DNA of 64,000 nt from Microscillaceae bacterium (GTDB taxonomy: Bacteria; Bacteroidota; Bacteroidia; Cytophagales; Microscillaceae): NCBI GenBank assembly GCA_012031215.1, contig JAAUUB010000004.1:1-64000 (forward strand), in the 5' to 3' direction. Below, in pieces: positions 6,172-48,072 of this stretch. The position numbers were made by a program, and so were the translations under genes. The notes beneath the pieces are model-generated. The model had not been told where the DNA came from and did no database searches. It worked only from the letters and a program-made list of their open reading frames with translations. The stretch's first letter is position 1; every line of letters begins with the position of its first letter.

Positions 6172-8031
6172 TTCCCCAAAGGGTAATGTCGTCTCTTTGT
6201 TGGGTACCAAAGCGGTCAAGGGCGGTCTCGAGGGCAATCTTTTGTTCGGGCATAGGCAGATCAAGGCACTCGGCGAGTGTTTGTTTAAAACGTTTTTGCC
6301 AAACCTTTTCCGGTTGGCGTCGGGTTGGTCAAAATATCCATCTGAACTCAGGTAGAGATGCGCGCCAGCCTGAAGATGAAGTATGTGCTCGACAAAATTT
6401 TCCTGCTTATCATTTTTGATACGCCCGCCAATGGCCCGGCGGGTGCCCTTCACAAAAATGATTTCTTTTGATTCGGCATAAAAAAGGTTGCCTTTTGCCC
6501 CTGCAAAAAGCACCTCAAAGGTTTTTTTCGCCCCGGCCTTTTTTTCTATTCGGCAAAGGCATACTTCCATCCCGTCGTCATTTCCTTTTTGGGCTTGTTT
6601 CAAAGCTCGCCGTACTTCAATGTCCAGAATTTCTAAAATGAAAGATGGTTCGTGGATTTTCTTTCCCAAAATGATTTCATTCAAAATCGTATTGCCAATC
6701 ATACTCATAAAAGCCCCCGGCACACCGTGCCCAGTGCAATCTACAACGGCCACAAAGAGATAGTCTTTGCGTTTTACAAACCAGTAAAAGTCGCCCGAAA
6801 CGGTGTGCAAAGGGCGGTAAATCACAAAGCAATCGGGTAAATACAGGCGGATTTCGTCTTCGTCGGGCAAGATGGCATGCTGTATCTTTGAAGCATAGTT
6901 GAGGCTATCCTGTAAGAGTTGCTGCTTTTGTTCAATTTTCAGGCTTTGGGTTTTGATTTGGCGGATATTTTCCTGCATTTTGACCAGCATAAAGGTGAAA
7001 TCGCGGGAGAGGTCGCCAATTTCATCGCGGGATTGTATGGGTAAAGGACTGACTTCTTCGGCAAAATCGCTCTGAATCACTTCCATCATAGAGGCCGAAA
7101 GACGGCGGATGGGGCGGCTCAGGATGATGGTGAGATAGAAAGCGATAAAAGCAAACAAGCCCAGGCCAATTCCGATGCCGCTAAAGGCTGCCATACGGTT
7201 TTGAAAACTGATTTCGTCGGTTTTGAGTAAAATGATACGGCCCAACTCATCAATAGACTGACTGATTTCGTCGCTGATAAAGCTTAGTTTTTGGCGAAGG
7301 CCGGATTTGTTGGTAAAGCCAATTTTTTCTTCTGAGAGCGCTAATTCCCGAAACGCATTTTTGTATCCCTCGAGCAGGTCATAGAAACGCTCTCGAACAC
7401 TGGGATTGGTAATTTTCTGGTCAATTTCATTTTTGAGCGTTTGGATGGTGGCCAGGAGTTTGGTGGTGTATTGGCTCTCTTTGCGGAGGATAAAATCCTT
7501 TTCGTGGCGGCGAATCATCAATACCGTTTCCAGATTGAGATTAAATTTGCCCGTCATGGTTTCTATTTCGTGGATATAGCGCCGCATGTGCCCTTCCTGG
7601 CCATAGTCTTTAAAGCCGCGTTTTTTAATCAGCGCCACCATTTCCTCGAAAATATGCTCGTATTCGGTGAATCTTTGGGTGATTTTCTTCAATTGTGCTT
7701 GCAGGGAAGGATCTTGGAGCTCGCGGGCATAGCCCAGAAACCGAAGCTCGCCCCGAATGAGGTTGATGCTTTTTTGGCGGGCCAAGAGGTATTCACTGGG
7801 GCTATTTTGATAATAAAGGGGGTTAATGGTTTCATCGGCAAAAAAATCCCGTTCCAGTTTCTTGGCCAGCAGGTTGTTGAGCTCTATATGGTTGAGAGAG
7901 GCCAGCAAGGTGCGGATGTGGCGCTCCTGAAACTCAGAGCGTTGGTTGATGATGATAATTGCCCCAGTGATGACTAGCAGAATCAGGAAAGAAAACAATA
8001 ACTTTGTACGGATGGTGCGCAAAGCCTGCAT
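6161..8031 (-). CDS. Membrane HAMP-SpoIIE serine phosphatase
   Basis: Predicted signalling phosphatase of the PP2C/SpoIIE type, probably dephosphorylating an anti-sigma-factor antagonist. Order: N-terminal membrane helix (residues ~10-28), long helical extracytoplasmic sensor, second membrane helix (~283-305), HAMP (~305-360), short coiled coil, then the phosphatase domain (~395-end). Metal-binding signatures visible are SGDFYWF, VDCTGHGVPGAFMS and SSDGYFDQ. In the sequence as given, the C-terminus leaves the family after KRFGKN. Restoring one base in the T5 run at 6293-6297 (plus strand) gives FKQTLAECLDLP and the typical ending RDDITLWGIKL, with the stop at 6161. The partner switch genes are not nearby, so the target is unknown. 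Divergent from the ABC exporter genes. Confidence 0.88.
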
Positions 8032-34313: not shown

Positions 34314-35059
34314 TTAAGCAACGTGCTGACCGCCGTTGATGGCGTAATTGGCCCCCGTGATAAAGCTGGCATTTTCGGAAGCCAGAAAAGAAACCAGGTA
34401 GGCAATTTCTTCGGTTCCTCCAAAACGACCCACCGGGATTTGCTGCACAATTTTTCCCGAATGTCTTCGCGCACTGCCAGCACCATATCTGTGGCAATAT
34501 AACCAGGAGAAATTGTATTGACGGTAATGCCCAGCTTGGCTACTTCCATCGCCAGGGTTTTGGTGAAGCCATGCATCCCGGCCTTGGCGGCGGAGTAATT
34601 GGCCTGGCCATATTGACCCCGTTGCCCGTTTACCGAAGAGATGTTAATAATGCGGCCATACTGCTGTTCGCGCATATCTTCAATCACATTACGTGAGCAG
34701 TTAAAGACACTGTTCAGATTGGTGCTGATGACCTCATCCCATTCCTCTTTGCTCATCTTGTGAAAGGGCTTATCGCGGGTAATGCCAGCATTGTTGACCA
34801 AAATGTCAATCGTGCCCACTTTTTCCTTGATTTCCTGCACCATTTTGCCCGTAGCTTCAAAGTTACAGACATCCCCTTCAAACAGTTCAATATGATAGCC
34901 CTCTGCTTCCATTTGTTCCTGCCATTTTTCGGCCTTTTCGCGGTTTCGGTAATTGCCTACCACCCGAAAGCCGTCTTCATACAGTTTTTTGCACATGGCG
35001 GTGCCTAGCCCACCCGTGGCTCCCGTTACCAGGGCTACTCTTTTTCCGTTTGCGTCCAT
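34314..35059 (-). CDS. phaB: Acetoacetyl-CoA reductase / short-chain dehydrogenase, frame break
   Basis: SDR-family enzyme of the PhaB type, reducing 3-ketoacyl-CoA with NAD(P)H. TGATGGLG cofactor loop, NNAGITRDKPFHKMSKEEWD, catalytic Ser in NISSVNGQRGQYGQ, Tyr and Lys in NYSAAKAG, and SPGYIATDMV are in place. After VREDIREK the frame slips at the T5 run 34451-34455 (plus strand). Restoring one base gives IVQQIPVGRFGGTEEIAYLV, then ENASFITGANYAINGGQH, and a stop at 34314. Corrected length ~248 residues, normal. No polyhydroxyalkanoate synthase is present in the window, so a role in storage polymer is possible but unproven; fatty-acid FabG-like use is the alternative. Confidence 0.88.
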
Positions 35060-41585: not shown

Positions 41586-42311
41586 TTAAGCCGAAACGGC
41601 TGTTTGACGACGCGCTTTCTTTTCGCTTACTTTTTCCAGAAGCCATTGGCACCAGGTTTCCATGCCTTCTCCGCTCAGACTGGATAAAGTGATGACCTCT
41701 ATTTCGGGATTCACCTCCCGGGCATCCTGGGTAAGGGCCTCTACCGAAAAGGGCACATAAGGCAATAAATCGGCCTTCGAGATGAGCATAAGCTCGCTGG
41801 TCAGAAACATCCGGGGATATTTCTTGGGTTTATCATCGCCTTCGGTGCTGGAGATGAGCGTTACGCGATAATCCTCGCCCAGGTCAAAGGCCGCCGGGCA
41901 AACCAGGTTGCCTACATTTTCAATAAAAAGCAAATCCAGGCCTTCGGCATGAATATGAGGCAGGGCCTGTAAAATCATCTGGGCTTCCAAATGGCATACC
42001 CCATTGGTAACAATTTGTAGCGAATCTACGCCCGCCTCGCGAATACGAATGGCATCGCGCTCCGTTTCCAGGTCACCCACCAGAACGGCCATTTTGAGCT
42101 GGTCTTTTAAGTAACGGGCGGTGGCCTGCATCAGGGTGGTTTTGCCACTCCCGGCCGAAGAAGTAATATTGACCAAGAGGGTATCTTGGGCCTGCATCTG
42201 GTCGCGGATGGACTTGGCCACAAAATCGTTGGCTTTGAGTAGGCTCAGGGTTGTGTTTTCGCACTGAACGGCCCCAACGGGCTGGCGGTTTGATTTGGCA
42301 AACTGGGTCAT
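41586..42311 (-). CDS. hypB: Hydrogenase nickel-incorporation GTPase HypB
   Basis: 241-residue SIMIBI GTPase that delivers nickel to the hydrogenase large subunit together with HypA. Walker A SSAGSGKTTLM, switch region GDLETERDA, the metal-site motif TNGVCHLEA, Walker B FIENVGNLVCPA and base-recognition ISKADLL are visible. There is no His-rich N-terminal nickel-storage stretch, so this is the short form. Last gene of the minus-strand hydrogenase operon, 44 bp after hypA. Confidence 0.95.
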   Translation of the reverse strand: MTQFAKSNRQPVGAVQCENTTLSLLKANDFVAKSIRDQMQAQDTLLVNITSSAGSGKTTLMQATARYLKDQLKMAVLVGDLETERDAIRIREAGVDSLQIVTNGVCHLEAQMILQALPHIHAEGLDLLFIENVGNLVCPAAFDLGEDYRVTLISSTEGDDKPKKYPRMFLTSELMLISKADLLPYVPFSVEALTQDAREVNPEIEVITLSSLSGEGMETWCQWLLEKVSEKKARRQTAVSA

Positions 42312-42355: not shown

Positions 42356-42703
42356 CTAACTTGACAGTTCTACTTTTCCAATTAATAGTTCATTGCCCTG
42401 CACCACCTGGCTACAAGGCCTTTGGCAATGCTGGCAGACAAAACGATATTGAGTTACTTCGGAGGTGTGCTGGCAAACCGGGCATTTTATCAATGTAGGT
42501 AGCCACTCAATATGCAATTTCATGGGCTGATTGGCAAATTCGGTACTGACCACCGCCTCAAAAGCATTTTGAAGCAGGATGGGCTCAACATTGGCCAATT
42601 GCCCTATTTTCAGGTGAATATCGGTAATTTTTTTGAATTCGACTTCCGAAAATTCTTCGGCCAGGGTACGAAAAGTACTTCGAATCAGAGAAATCTCGTG
42701 CAT
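42356..42703 (-). CDS. hypA: Hydrogenase nickel-insertion zinc protein HypA
   Basis: 115 residues. N-terminal nickel ligand motif MHEISLI, then the zinc motif CPVCQH...CQHCQRPC with two CxxC pairs. Supplies nickel to the active site with HypB. Starts 1 bp after the stop of the TPR gene, so it is translationally linked to it. Confidence 0.95.
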   Translation of the reverse strand: MHEISLIRSTFRTLAEEFSEVEFKKITDIHLKIGQLANVEPILLQNAFEAVVSTEFANQPMKLHIEWLPTLIKCPVCQHTSEVTQYRFVCQHCQRPCSQVVQGNELLIGKVELSS

Positions 42704-42704
42704 A

Positions 42705-44207
42705 CTATTTATCTTTCCACAAAATGATTTTCAATTCTTCCAAATTGCGCAGGTGGGCCTCGGCCTCTTTTTTGAGTACCGCATCGTCTACGAGGCGGAG
42801 CACTTCCTCCGCCATGCCTTGCATAGTTTGCCAGAGGGCCTGCATTTGGGGTAGCCCCAGCCGGGCTTCGTCCTGGGTTTGAAACCAGTGCGCTTCCAGG
42901 TAATTGAGCAAGGTAATGGCCCGTTCGTAAGGCCAGGCGTTTGTGCGCACGGCCAAAGCTTTTTCATACAAGGCAATGGCTTGCGCATAATGGTCGGCCC
43001 GAAGGGCAGCCGGAAATTTGCTCAGGGCATTGGCAAAATTGTTGCAAATCTGCGCATATTCATAGGGATAGTCGGCTTCATTAAAAAACAGGAGTGCTTC
43101 CTGAAAGGCCCGTATGGATTGGGTGGCCCAGAGTTGCTTTTTTTGGGCTTCGTCCGGCATTTCGGCAAAAATAACGCCCAAATAATGTTGAATTTGGGCA
43201 TAGCGGGCAGGCTCCGTTTCCTTTTTGAAGATTTTGAGGGCTTCTTGCCAGGCTTGCAAAGCGCCCCGGTAAAACTGAGGCTGGCCACTTTGGGCCCAGG
43301 TATAAAGCAAAGTGCCTTTTCGCTCCTGAGCCTGGCCAAGCAGTTCAGGCAGTTCTTCCTCCCTAAGCATTTGAATGGCTTTGTTGATGTAAGAGAGCGA
43401 TTCGGAATAACTTTCGTGGAGGTTGGCGATTTCGGAGGCATCAATGAGGCGCAAGGCCCATTCCCCAGTTTGACCAGTGGATTCGAAATACTGCATCGTT
43501 TCCCACACGAGATGCTTGGCTTGCGTGATAAGGCTCCAGTCATAAGGAACCCGGATTTCTTGCATGAGCAGGGTGGCCAGCAAGGATTTGAGCGAATGCT
43601 CCGCCGGAAGGCTTAATCTTTGGCGCAGCATCTTTTCCAGTTGTGCCTGTGCTTCGGGCGCATCGCCTATATCTGTGAGCAGGCCGGCATATTGCCAAAG
43701 GGTAAAAGCCTGGTAATCAGGCGTAGGAGCCAGGGCCAGGGCCTCTTGGTAGCGGGCATGCAGGGCGAGCAGTTCGGGCGGGCTTGCCCAGGAGCCATAA
43801 TGTGCCGCGATGGCCTGATTGTGGGCGATACGATACGCCTCAAAAGCCTCTTCGGCCCTTTCGGCATCGCCGGAAAGCCATTCTTCTTGAAGAAGCCATT
43901 CGTGCTGAAGAGCCTGCAAAGCCTGAAAATCTTTTAACAAAGGATGCGAAGCCCCCAGATAAGCCGTGGCTTTTTCCAGATTGCCCAGTTTTCCAAAAAT
44001 AGTCCCTAATACCAGGTCTTGGCAGACGGCCAGGCCATTGGGTAAAAGATAAGGTGGAAGATGATTTTGCCAGTCAAGGGGAAAATACAAAGATTCTTCC
44101 TTCAGGCAAATGACCCAGGCGGAGAAAGGCGGCTCTTTTTGGGCCAGGTCTTGCCAGGTAAGTAGCTCATCCAGACGGGGCTCAAGCTGCAAAAATTGCT
44201 GCAGCAA
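42705..44207 (-). CDS. Hydrogenase-operon TPR protein (500 aa), function unknown
   Basis: All-helical, with tetratricopeptide-like pairs throughout the second half (for example NLHESYSESLSYINKAIQML, YRGALQAWQEALKIFKKE, HYAQAIALYEKALAVR). No signal peptide or membrane segment, so cytoplasmic. Located between the 100-residue unknown and hypA with gaps of 9 and 1 bp, so it is certainly in the operon. From memory, group 2a hydrogenase operons of other phyla also carry a TPR gene of this size, which suggests a dedicated assembly or scaffolding factor; that role is an inference. About 40 Glu/Gln/Ala-rich helices are predicted from the sequence pattern. Confidence 0.8.
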   Translation of the reverse strand: MLQQFLQLEPRLDELLTWQDLAQKEPPFSAWVICLKEESLYFPLDWQNHLPPYLLPNGLAVCQDLVLGTIFGKLGNLEKATAYLGASHPLLKDFQALQALQHEWLLQEEWLSGDAERAEEAFEAYRIAHNQAIAAHYGSWASPPELLALHARYQEALALAPTPDYQAFTLWQYAGLLTDIGDAPEAQAQLEKMLRQRLSLPAEHSLKSLLATLLMQEIRVPYDWSLITQAKHLVWETMQYFESTGQTGEWALRLIDASEIANLHESYSESLSYINKAIQMLREEELPELLGQAQERKGTLLYTWAQSGQPQFYRGALQAWQEALKIFKKETEPARYAQIQHYLGVIFAEMPDEAQKKQLWATQSIRAFQEALLFFNEADYPYEYAQICNNFANALSKFPAALRADHYAQAIALYEKALAVRTNAWPYERAITLLNYLEAHWFQTQDEARLGLPQMQALWQTMQGMAEEVLRLVDDAVLKKEAEAHLRNLEELKIILWKDK

Positions 44208-44216
44208 GGATAGTCA

Positions 44217-44519
44217 TTAATTTGAGAAAAAATTGAAAGCATCGTAGTTGGTTTTAAAGGTGCCTCGGGCATCCCTTTGAATTCCCCTTTGAAAGATTTG
44301 GGCATAAAGCCGGGCTTGCGCTTCCGAGGCATAATCCGCAATGGCGCGAATTCTCAGCACCAGCGGCTTGTCTTGATGTATAAAAAGTATTGACAAATGC
44401 CAACGTCCTTTTTTGAGTACAATTCGGTAGCTTACCTGGGCATTGTGAAGCCAAAAGTCATCGGCGAGTAATTTTAAATCCTCGTTTCCCCCCAGTTCAG
44501 AATACTTGGTTTCTTCCAT
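44217..44519 (-). CDS. Hydrogenase-operon small protein (100 aa), function unknown
   Basis: 100 residues. The N-terminal part is helical (LKLLADDFWLHNAQ) and the middle reads as antiparallel strands (VSYRIVLKKGRWHLSILFI, KPLVLRIRAIADY). No cysteines, so it does not bind an iron-sulfur cluster on its own. 9 bp before the TPR gene and 28 bp after the protease gene. Not recognised. A chaperone or subunit for the large or small hydrogenase subunit is possible. Confidence 0.7.
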   Translation of the reverse strand: MEETKYSELGGNEDLKLLADDFWLHNAQVSYRIVLKKGRWHLSILFIHQDKPLVLRIRAIADYASEAQARLYAQIFQRGIQRDARGTFKTNYDAFNFFSN

Positions 44520-44547: not shown

Positions 44548-45416
44548 TCAAAAAAGGCGAATATTCAGTATTTTTCCATTTCCCTGTATTTCATAGTCGA
44601 GTGTACGGTCTTGCCCGTCAATCTCAAAATCAATTAAAACTTCGTGGAGGGCCACTGATTTTTGCCCTTGTTGGTTTTTGTTTTTGAGCATATAGGGGGA
44701 GGCTTCGTGCATTTTCTTAAACCAGGTTTGGCTCATTCCGGCCATCAGCAGGGCTTGGCGTTCGGGATAGTAGCGCAGCAAGACGTGCGATTCTTCCGCC
44801 AGGACCGCCTCAGCGAGAGAGGGCTCAATCAGGAGATGATGGGTTTTGAGCTGTACATCCCCTTTTGAGGCTTGGGGCAGTGTCGTGGAAGCGGCTTCAA
44901 CTGCCGCACCTGAGGGCACTTCCATCGCTTTCAGCTCTTCTAAGATGAGCTGCACTACTTTGTCGCCCGCGGCCCGGCTTCGGAACCGAGGCCCATTTCG
45001 AGCCGGGTATTTTCAATAGCAATCAGATAGACCTGAATATCTTCGGGATAGGCTTCCCCCAAAATCTTTTTGGCATAAGACAGGGCCTGGTCCCATTTGA
45101 GCCCATGCAAAAAGACCAGGGGGTCGTTTTGGGGCGCCTGGGCTACTACGGCGGCGGGCACTTTGAAAAGCGTGCCAAGGGGTTCCCCAGTATTGATAAC
45201 CCCATCCACAAGGATAATGCGTGCTTGCCCTTTCAATTCAAAAAGCACCTCAAAAGCGGAGGTGCCCATGTCCAATATTTTGAGATTCTCCTGGGGCTTT
45301 ATTTTTTCCAGCAGCTTTTCAATCACATAAATTCCCACCCCATCATCGCTCCGTACCGGGTTGCCAAAGCCCAAAATGGCGGTAGGACTATCCAAACGCA
45401 GATTTACTTTTTCCAT
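44548..45416 (-). CDS. hupD: Hydrogenase maturation protease (HupD/HybD type) with C-terminal extension, frame break
   Basis: Endopeptidase that removes the C-terminal tail of the large subunit after nickel insertion. ATG 45416 gives MEKVNLRLDSPTAILGFGNPVRSDDGVG. Metal ligands: Glu/Asp after GFGN-RSDDG, Asp in VDGVINTG and His in FLHGLKWD. As read, the frame stops after GPRATK near 44955. Shifting frame there restores AAGDKVVQLILEELKA, which is the normal C-terminal helix of these proteases, so I join the two ORFs. About 115 further residues then follow (strand-rich, HHLLIEPSLAEAVL to GNGKILNIRLF), an extension I do not know from HupD/HybD proteins. Lies between the large subunit and the 100-residue protein. 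Confidence 0.8.
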
Positions 45417-45475
45417 AGAATAGTAAAAGGCCTGTGGAGTCATTGCTGACTTCCACAAGCCCTTGGTTGGATGAC

Positions 45476-47062
45476 TTACAGTTTAAACTCCGTTATTTTT
45501 TTGCCGGTTTTTTCGTCGTGGGCGTGTACAGTACACACCAGGCAGGAATCAAAAGAACGGGCAACCATGCCTACTTCTACCGGGTCGTGGGGGTCTTCTA
45601 TTTCAGTGCCCATCAGTGCCGCCTCAATTGGGCCTGATTTGCCTTCGTCATCATTGGGGCCCACATTGAGCGTGGTGGGGGCAACAACCTGGTAATTTTT
45701 TATCACCCCATTCTCAATCTCAATCCAGTGAGCCAAAGCCCCCCGGGCGGCTTCGGTGGCCCCAAAGCCCTTGCCGTCCTGTTCTTTGGGTTTGATGTAA
45801 AACTCATCGTCCAGTCTGATTTCAGAAAGCCATTTGTTAATCATTTCGTACAACCGGGGCGCTTCGTGCATCCGGGCCAGGGCGCGGGTAAAGACATTCG
45901 GGCCTTTTTGCTTCAAAATATCGCCAAACAAGGGGTCGCGAAACTGATGTTCCAGATTGGCCGGGTTGGCGTTCATAATCACCCGCGACAAGGGACCTGC
46001 TTCGGCGGCGTGGCCCATATAGCGAGGGGCCTTAGACCAGCTATACTTGCCGTCAAAATTGGTTTGCTCCAGGTTTTGCGAGGGCACGGGCGTGGGCAAA
46101 GGTTCGTTCCAGGGGTGGGCCGCCGGCACATCTTCAAACCAGGTGTGCTTCACGTGCTCCATAATCTGGAGATGGTCAAACTCGTGGTACTTTTCGCCAT
46201 CAAAAAAGCCACTGGACGAAATCAGGGCTTTGTTACGGCCCTCAATGGTAGGCTTGTTATACAGGTCTTTGTGCAGATAAGTGCCATAGGCCAGGAATTT
46301 TCCTACGCCCTGCCCAAAGGTATCCATTCCAAATTCCAGGCTGGCCCGGATGAAAAGCCCCAGGTCGCTGTTGCGTTGCGATTCGTTTTCTTCAACCCAG
46401 GCCAGCAGGTCGTCCCAGGTCTGGATTTGCAAATACCGCTCAACAGAACAACCCAGCCAAATTGATTCCAGCCATTCATTGCGGAAGAAGTTCATAATCG
46501 CGTGGGCCCGCGTGATGTCTTTGAGTGTTGGAGCACACATCACCCCGCCGGGAACCATATAGCTTGAATGTGGCCATTGGCCGCCAAAGAGGGCATAGAC
46601 CTCTACGGGTCGCCCGCTGGCGGTAACCCCTTTTTGAAAGGAAGTACCGACATAAGCCGAAAAACGCTTCACTACCTCCGCGTAGAGGGGTTTGTTGGCA
46701 AATTTCTTATTGGCCATGTCGGTTGCAAAAATGGCATAAAACCAGCGTGGAATACTCTGAACGGTTTCGGTGGCCTGTCCAATGGCCCGAAGCAAAAGTG
46801 CATTGGGGGGCAGGGTAGTCTTCCAGGCCGTATCGAGGGCCGAAGAAGCACAATATAAGTGAGAACCCCCACAGATACCGCAAATACGGGGGGTAACGAT
46901 TAAGCCTGATTGGGGGTCCTTGCCTTCCATGATTTTTTCAAAACCCCGAAACATCGCCGCCTGGGTGTGGGCACGGGTAACTACCCCGTTTTCCATATAC
47001 ACCTTCACGTCCAGGTCGCCTTCGACCCGGCCTACCGGAGAAATATTTAGCTCTTTTACCAT
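45476..47062 (-). CDS. hupL: [NiFe]-hydrogenase large subunit (group 2a-like)
   Basis: 528 residues carrying the NiFe(CN)2CO active site. L1 motif RICGICGGSH near residue 60 and L2 motif SFDSCLVCTVHAH near the C-terminus, four ligand cysteines in all. Fifteen residues (AHDEKTGKKITEFKL) follow the L2 His and fit the tail that the maturation protease removes. The N-terminal SPVGRVEGDLDVKV and the EDP...VE style of the C-terminal part fit an uptake enzyme. 30 bp after the small subunit. The frame is intact throughout. Confidence 0.95.
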   Translation of the reverse strand: MVKELNISPVGRVEGDLDVKVYMENGVVTRAHTQAAMFRGFEKIMEGKDPQSGLIVTPRICGICGGSHLYCASSALDTAWKTTLPPNALLLRAIGQATETVQSIPRWFYAIFATDMANKKFANKPLYAEVVKRFSAYVGTSFQKGVTASGRPVEVYALFGGQWPHSSYMVPGGVMCAPTLKDITRAHAIMNFFRNEWLESIWLGCSVERYLQIQTWDDLLAWVEENESQRNSDLGLFIRASLEFGMDTFGQGVGKFLAYGTYLHKDLYNKPTIEGRNKALISSSGFFDGEKYHEFDHLQIMEHVKHTWFEDVPAAHPWNEPLPTPVPSQNLEQTNFDGKYSWSKAPRYMGHAAEAGPLSRVIMNANPANLEHQFRDPLFGDILKQKGPNVFTRALARMHEAPRLYEMINKWLSEIRLDDEFYIKPKEQDGKGFGATEAARGALAHWIEIENGVIKNYQVVAPTTLNVGPNDDEGKSGPIEAALMGTEIEDPHDPVEVGMVARSFDSCLVCTVHAHDEKTGKKITEFKL

Positions 47063-47092: not shown

Positions 47093-48072
47093 TTATTTTG
47101 AGTGTTTGTAAAGTTCACGATTTACGCCGACAATTTTCTCGACTTTGCCCATGGTTTTTTCAAATCCGGCTCGTAGATAATAGCCCAGTTTTGAATTGCC
47201 AGCGGGTACATCGCGGGGTAAAAAGCCCAGGTATTTCATGGTTTTGAAAACACTGCCCTTGACCAGGTCGTGGTGCGGAAATCCGGGTTCAGTACAACCG
47301 AGGCAGGGGTGGTTTACCCGGGTTTTGCTAGACTGGCGGTTCCACAAAATGCGGTTGCAACTGGCGTGGGTCATAGGCCCCCGACAGCCGACTTCATAAA
47401 ACAAACAGCCGCCGCGCTTGCCAAAGTGGCCGTCTATCTTTTGGGCAAAGCTCACGGCATTGGTGCAGCCCGTCTGCACAAACTCCGTAAAAAATGTCTT
47501 GGGCCGGTGGTAATCGTCAATCAGCACATCGCCAATGCGCCCCGTTGAAATGGCCACCAGGATTTGGGTAACCCAGTCGGGGTGGGCCGGGCAGCCGGGA
47601 ATGTTAATCACAGGCAATCCACCTTTTGATTTATAATCTGCACCCAAAAGCCGCCTTTTTGCTTTTTGTGAAACTGCAAACCCGTGGATTCACTAGGATT
47701 GGGGGGAACGGCCGGAATACCACCCCAGGTAGCACAATCGCCAATGGCCACCACATAACCCGCCACCTGCGAAAGCTCTCGGACCCAGTCCATCATCGGG
47801 CGGTCGCAGAAAAAATTCATTGTACCCGTATTGTTAGGGCCTTGAATCAGCGAGCCCTCATACACCAGAATATCCATCTGGATTTTGCCCGCAATAATGT
47901 CGTGCATCAATTCCGACACCTGCTCCCCAATCTCGAGGCCAATGGAAGGGTGCCACAATATGTTAACGCCGAAATCGGTTACCAGCTCGACCACCGTCGG
48001 CTCTTCGGCATTGAGGAAGGACATCGTATTGCCGCTACAGGCACCTCCTTGAAGCCATAGTACATTTGCCAT
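47093..48072 (-). CDS. hupS: [NiFe]-hydrogenase small subunit (group 2a-like, no Tat signal), frame break
   Basis: Iron-sulfur subunit relaying electrons from the active site. It begins directly with MANVLWLQGGACSGNTMS and FLNAEEP, the N-terminus I know from group 2a (HupS/Huc) enzymes; no twin-arginine leader precedes it, so it is cytoplasmic. Cluster cysteines occur at CSGN (12), IGDCATWGG, IPGCPAHPD and, for the other clusters, EVGCRGP, ASCN and HPCLGCTEPGFP. The frame breaks at the A4 run 47646-47649 (plus strand); one extra base gives GGFLGADYKSKGG. About 326 residues. No membrane anchor helix at the end. First gene of the operon. Confidence 0.92.

Follow-up and report, generated by a model that had tools for sequence, protein, structure and literature searches.

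A frame break in the maturation protease gene of a group 2a-like hydrogenase operon and the conserved small gene behind it

The window analysed here, a stretch of 64,000 nucleotides from a contig of a Microscillaceae bacterium, carries on its minus strand the genes of a hydrogenase operon in the order hupS (broken), hupL, maturation protease, an open reading frame (ORF) in another frame, a 100-residue ORF, a gene for a TPR-like protein, hypA and hypB. The features that matter for the argument are the following.

47093 to 48072, minus strand: hupS, for the hydrogenase small subunit, in two pieces on account of a frame break (48072-47608 and 47647-47093)
45476 to 47062, minus strand: hupL, hydrogenase large subunit, an ORF with 82.9% identity to a Runella plasmid large subunit
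44955 to 45458, minus strand: first part of the hydrogenase maturation protease, the ORF as assembled (TIGR00072 and PF01750)
44974 to 44978, minus strand: site of the frame break in the protease, a short run rich in G/C where the profile switches frame from position 137 to 138
44920 to 44976, minus strand: C-terminal helix of the protease, RAAGDKVVQLILEELKAME, in the frame of the tail (profile positions 138-156)
44551 to 44931, minus strand: partner ('tail') gene or domain, whose homologues immediately follow the protease at 44 of 44 Bacteroidota loci (alignment A1)
44551 to 44865, minus strand: the partner's predicted folded domain, beta-rich and 105 residues long (AlphaFold2)
44217 to 44519, minus strand: second small gene, 100 amino acids, no assigned family, an ORF kept in the operon (profile)
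42705 to 44207, minus strand: TPR-like protein, the next gene, conserved (profile; weak TPR matches)
42356 to 42703, minus strand: hypA, ORF
41586 to 42311, minus strand: hypB, ORF

The assembled protease ORF has two possible starts, an ATG at 45416 and an upstream TTG at 45458, and it stops at 44955. Its product scores above the curated cut-offs of TIGR00072 (92 bits, cut-off 47.45) and PF01750 (33.3 bits, cut-off 23), and below the 151.8-bit cut-off of the HyaD/HybD subfamily TIGR00140, where it reaches 40.8 bits. The large subunit is 59% identical to a Mycobacterium plasmid copy and retains residues behind its CTVH motif; its C-terminus, CTVH-AHDEKTGKKITEFKL, we take by the cleavage rule to be that of an uncut precursor. 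The order HupS, HupL, protease, small ORF, TPR is common to the window and the Mycobacterium plasmid, and the order protease, tail, TPR, hypA, hypB is repeated across the examined loci. Large-subunit identity and gene order suggest that the operon encodes an uptake hydrogenase of a group 2a-like kind.

The last residues in the protease frame are ...LGSEAGPRATK, and a stop codon follows. The other frame reads AAGDKVVQLILEELKAMEVPSG... and, by way of the stretch ...RAAGDKVVQLILEELKAMEVPSG..., continues free of stop codons until 44548; the ORF concerned (44955-44548) lies in a different frame from the protease ORF. The initial annotation had observed that the protease frame ends while the last helix of the family, AGDKVVQLILEEL, stands in the other frame, and the ORFs, their translations and a profile of the relatives all agree with it. 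It had also described a C-terminal extension of about 115 residues; the other frame does run on past the helix, but for about 127 residues. When a protease profile was built from 44 relatives, with the window sequence left out, the first frame matched positions 2-137 with 240 bits and the second matched positions 138-156 with 7 bits, the latter being a 19-residue piece that is weak when taken alone (E 0.027 in a small search). The two matches are contiguous, with position 137 in one frame and position 138 in the other and zero gap between them, and the proteases of the relatives close with the same C-terminal helix. Because the profile runs on exactly across the two frames, the break is placed inside the protease gene; as read from the alignments, this exact contiguity, which is not expected by chance, is the evidence.

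The protease is not the only gene in the window with such a break. A search for frame breaks with the ORFs in 1.05 Mb of G006, a genome from the same family, covered 28,290 bases of the window and revealed three further breaks, one in hupS near 47640 and two near 34460 and 6283; the reverse search for frame breaks in G006 gave 0. This finder is blind to the protease break itself, whose second piece is shorter than the 20-residue minimum. The break in hupS is well supported, its pieces having 92% and 84% identity to the relative; those near 34460 and 6283 rest on distant homologues with about 25-55% identity, and the genes affected, named by eye, are presumably a short-chain dehydrogenase-like and a phosphatase-like gene. 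The other break sites fall at short base runs: hupS (47093-48072) is split in a run of T, with both pieces matching the small-subunit family, and runs of A accompany the breaks at about 34410-34530 and 6230-6350, a pattern that points to an assembly prone to indels.

Since such breaks recur in the window and the relative showed none, we read the protease stop as a likely error. The contig appears prone to frame errors, and the protease gene of this operon is probably cut at about 44974-44978 by an assembly or sequencing error, most likely in the assembly and likely of one base. If the stop were instead real, the locus as assembled would encode a truncated protease and a separately started downstream protein, for which the overlap of TAG and GTG at 44957-44953 would offer a plausible coupled start; but such a protease would be without its conserved last helix, which the other frame preserves in full, and one would have to accept a second broken gene in the operon, hupS; we hold this reading to be highly improbable. 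Programmed frameshifting to yield the full protease is barely conceivable: although the sequence is well conserved in both frames on each side of the break, 44 of 44 relatives read the protease through its own helix in one frame, and the idea was rejected since the relatives need no frameshift.

What lies behind the break was studied in the relatives. A protease scan of genome contigs gave 38 loci, and six loci from whole-genome relatives completed a set of 44 Bacteroidota-type loci, which comprise 38 distinct junction sequences and include one record (L055) labelled Rickettsiales. A homologue of the tail stands behind the protease in 38 of 38 scan loci, directly so except in two near-copies (L042 and L044), where it follows at about 200-300 bases. 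Throughout the 44 loci the partner is an ORF of its own, of about 100 residues, and a shared open frame of protease and partner was found in 0 of 44: the partner lies in another frame in 36 and in the same frame behind a stop codon in eight. Forty of the 43 loci with a candidate partner start have it within 50 bases of the protease stop (L042 has no candidate start in this count), and at eight loci the protease stop and the partner start overlap by 4 bases. Three further loci, from a phylum-wide search, have the same gene order and are also unfused. The complete plasmids of Runella slithyformis and Hymenobacter psoromatis likewise keep the two genes separate, with overlaps of 4 and 47 bases, and their partner copies, both annotated 'hypothetical protein', match the partner family profile (A1) with 112 bits (RUNSL_RS27720) and 111 bits (A0257_23160). 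Membership of the family, taken as a profile match directly behind the protease, was found at 44 of 44 loci and on the two complete plasmids.

The distribution of the partner follows that of the protease. Among 96 related genomes, a close protease (E of 7.2e-54 or lower) and the partner occur in the same 7, and 7 others have distant proteases only and no partner; among 395 genomes of the phylum, 6 match the partner, one of them weakly (G257). The weak partner-like ORF of G257 (E 9e-4) lies at a locus, L066, that is without protease or large subunit. Searches of Pfam and NCBIfam with 37 partner members gave no convincing family match, and a PDB sequence search with the family gave nothing useful. 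An iron-sulphur role for the partner was rejected, since 27 of the 37 A1 members have no Cys.

The tail is, on this comparative evidence, a conserved partner gene of the operon, of a family hitherto without a name, and the stretch downstream of the break would be the window's copy of it, encoding a beta-rich protein of about 100 residues made right after the protease. The initial annotation had offered either one longer protein or two overlapping genes. For the Bacteroidota relatives the second holds, with two genes that often overlap by a few bases; the single longer protein fails among them and finds its counterpart in one frame on a Mycobacterium intracellulare plasmid. Rather than a new domain of this one protein, the extension is a conserved gene, and the search that the initial annotation proposed in other group 2a-like operons did find the family there, annotated 'hypothetical protein'.

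A narrower matter, which concerns the local gene structure and not the partner family, is whether the two are fused in the window itself. The partner could start at ATG 44925 or GTG 44955, with its stop at 44548-44550. Beyond the break, the frame passes from the helix into the partner domain with no stop codon between them, so protease, a linker of about 20 residues and barrel may form one protein here, cut only by the assembly error; we put this at even odds. The same two domains are naturally fused in Mycobacterium, and two genes would need a second error in the short linker, an event of about 1% at 3 breaks per 28 kb. Against this, none of the 44 Bacteroidota loci is fused, nor are the three further loci, and the in-frame ATG at 44925 (MEVPSG) coincides with the point at which a separate gene begins in relatives, for instance L023 (MLFPKPG). 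A second error in the linker is about as unlikely as a fusion, given 0 fused relatives of 44.

Six group 2a-like plasmid operons from other phyla were compared: Deinococcota, Alphaproteobacteria (three), Bacillota and Actinomycetota. The best partner-profile score among the six came from Octadecabacter (E 4.6e-6, six frames); Sphingopyxis and Mesorhizobium were weak at first and reached 2e-13 and 2e-7 with a widened profile. On the Thermus plasmid the stretch behind the protease that holds the partner domain is without annotation (L146, 9110-9409), and the Sulfobacillus protein, missed by the partner profile, was placed via alignment and a combined profile only. An alignment of the six non-Bacteroidota copies (A3) matches A1 with an hhalign probability of 96.7 (E 4.6e-10), the core of the match being LLK-RN--GDR, from which Sulfobacillus deviates. 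Judged by these profile matches, the partner family extends to group 2a-like operons of other phyla. The protease of the Mycobacterium intracellulare plasmid, WP_069954336, has 257 amino acids in one open frame, of which residues 1-144 match the protease family and the remainder is a linker and the partner domain. By its domain matches it is a natural protease-partner fusion, represented by one record from one species; at least one Mycobacterium plasmid would thus encode protease and partner as a single chain.

The second small gene (44217-44519) was found by profile in 40 of 48 loci, where it either precedes hupS or is placed between the partner and TPR genes; it has no Pfam match, and its model reaches a pLDDT of 74. 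Its relatives are a Mycobacterium protein of 85 residues and, in Sulfobacillus, the C-terminal half of Sulac_3577 (hhalign probability 96). Sulac_3577 (L149, 9074-9571) seems to join both small domains of the operon in one chain, and would be a further fusion. The TPR-like protein was found by profile in 48 of 48 loci, and its TPR matches are weak and below the Pfam cut-off.

The strand-rich character that the initial annotation had read from the tail is borne out by the AlphaFold2 model of the window's partner domain, which has a mean pLDDT of 95.1 and a pTM of 0.86. The best matches of the model among solved folds are MraZ, with VIA-align Z of 7.5-7.9 over 90-91 residues, a range also reached by common arrangements, and the next family stands at 4.7; Foldseek gives the top three MraZ matches probabilities of 0.96-0.99, but E-values of 0.046 or worse. 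At the level of sequence, MraZ (PF02381) is absent from the Pfam matches of the 37 members at E up to 1, and the partner family compared with MraZ profiles gives an hhalign probability of 1.7 and no sequence similarity, on which value MraZ was rejected as a sequence relative. The likeness to MraZ is likely one of fold only.

An MraZ-like fold could equally mean DNA binding, and the partner might then be a DNA-binding regulator of the operon. The fold matches speak for such a role, but the family shows no sequence similarity to MraZ profiles, its gene is always in the middle of the operon, and it is fused to a protease in Mycobacterium, and we consider a regulator improbable. Mean net charge, at -1.2 for the 37 partner members and -5.2 for 30 MraZ proteins, does not decide. 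In the open-licence literature, we found no paper that treats MraZ and a hydrogenase maturation protease jointly.

Our overall reading, to which we give a probability of roughly 60%, is that the frame break in the protease is a likely assembly error and that the gene downstream is a partner gene whose product is a helper dedicated to the group 2a endoprotease. The small partner would be non-catalytic. Docked either on the protease or on the precursor of the large subunit, it may assist, along with the conserved TPR protein, the final Ni-dependent C-terminal cut. Help with this final cleavage is our best guess and the most economical reading, a function that we infer from the identity and synteny observed, because the partner comes after the protease, often overlaps it, forms one chain with it in one phylum and co-occurs with it. 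The partner might instead aid the small subunit or be a structural subunit of the hydrogenase, which we think rather unlikely. For the uncharacterised genes in the Nostoc operon, published proposals lean towards maturation of the small subunit (available excerpts of PMC2408588 and PMC3126725), those between hupSL and hyp being proposed to mature HupS (PMC2408588); but the fusion partner is the large-subunit protease, and the available excerpts of PMC10017518 describe purified M. smegmatis Huc with HucS, HucL and HucM only.

Returning to the helper of the endoprotease, we suggest tentatively, and at low confidence, that an MraZ/AbrB-like barrel was turned into a substrate-handling module of the group 2a endoprotease in several phyla, with coupled translation in most and independent fusion in Mycobacterium and in the bacterium of the window. 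Huc, an enzyme that lives on H2 from the atmosphere, is among the group 2a hydrogenases. The operons of this group contain several genes of unassigned function, among which a family that follows the protease is a direct and testable lead. A partner always behind the protease, and fused to it in one lineage, points to a probable role in the last step of large-subunit maturation, and might also be of use in heterologous expression. What the window itself teaches is unremarkable: a slip in sequencing probably accounts for the apparent stop.

Among known systems, our search of the open-licence literature found no paper that names the partner family or an extension of group 2a proteases, and none on a C-terminal extension of these proteases by title. 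M. smegmatis MSMEG_2264 is a peptidase M52 (PMC2799521, in part). HucM does not correspond to the partner: in the excerpts of PMC10017518 its gene lies upstream of hucS and it forms a coiled-coil stalk, whereas the partner lies behind the protease and is predicted to be beta-rich. The small Nostoc ORFs asr0689 and asr0690 are transcribed together with TPR, NifU-like and hyp genes in the neighbourhood of hupSL (excerpts of PMC2408588); compared by description, their two reported transmembrane regions contrast with the compact beta-rich model of the partner. MraZ resembles the predicted partner in overall fold, with no detectable sequence relationship. Parageobacillus thermoglucosidasius IMI45_RS09615 is a hypothetical protein directly behind a 2a protease, like the partner in its position; according to the excerpts of PMC12976888, its expression goes up with that of its operon, from 1.26 FPKM at optimum growth to 661 FPKM at near-zero growth. 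Much closer are RUNSL_RS27720 of Runella and A0257_23160 of Hymenobacter, of the same family and in the same place, although theirs are separate genes without name or function, whereas the frames of the window run together. WP_069954336 of Mycobacterium, finally, has the protease and then the same domain in one frame on a complete plasmid, but its sequence is remote and the first half of its domain is shorter.
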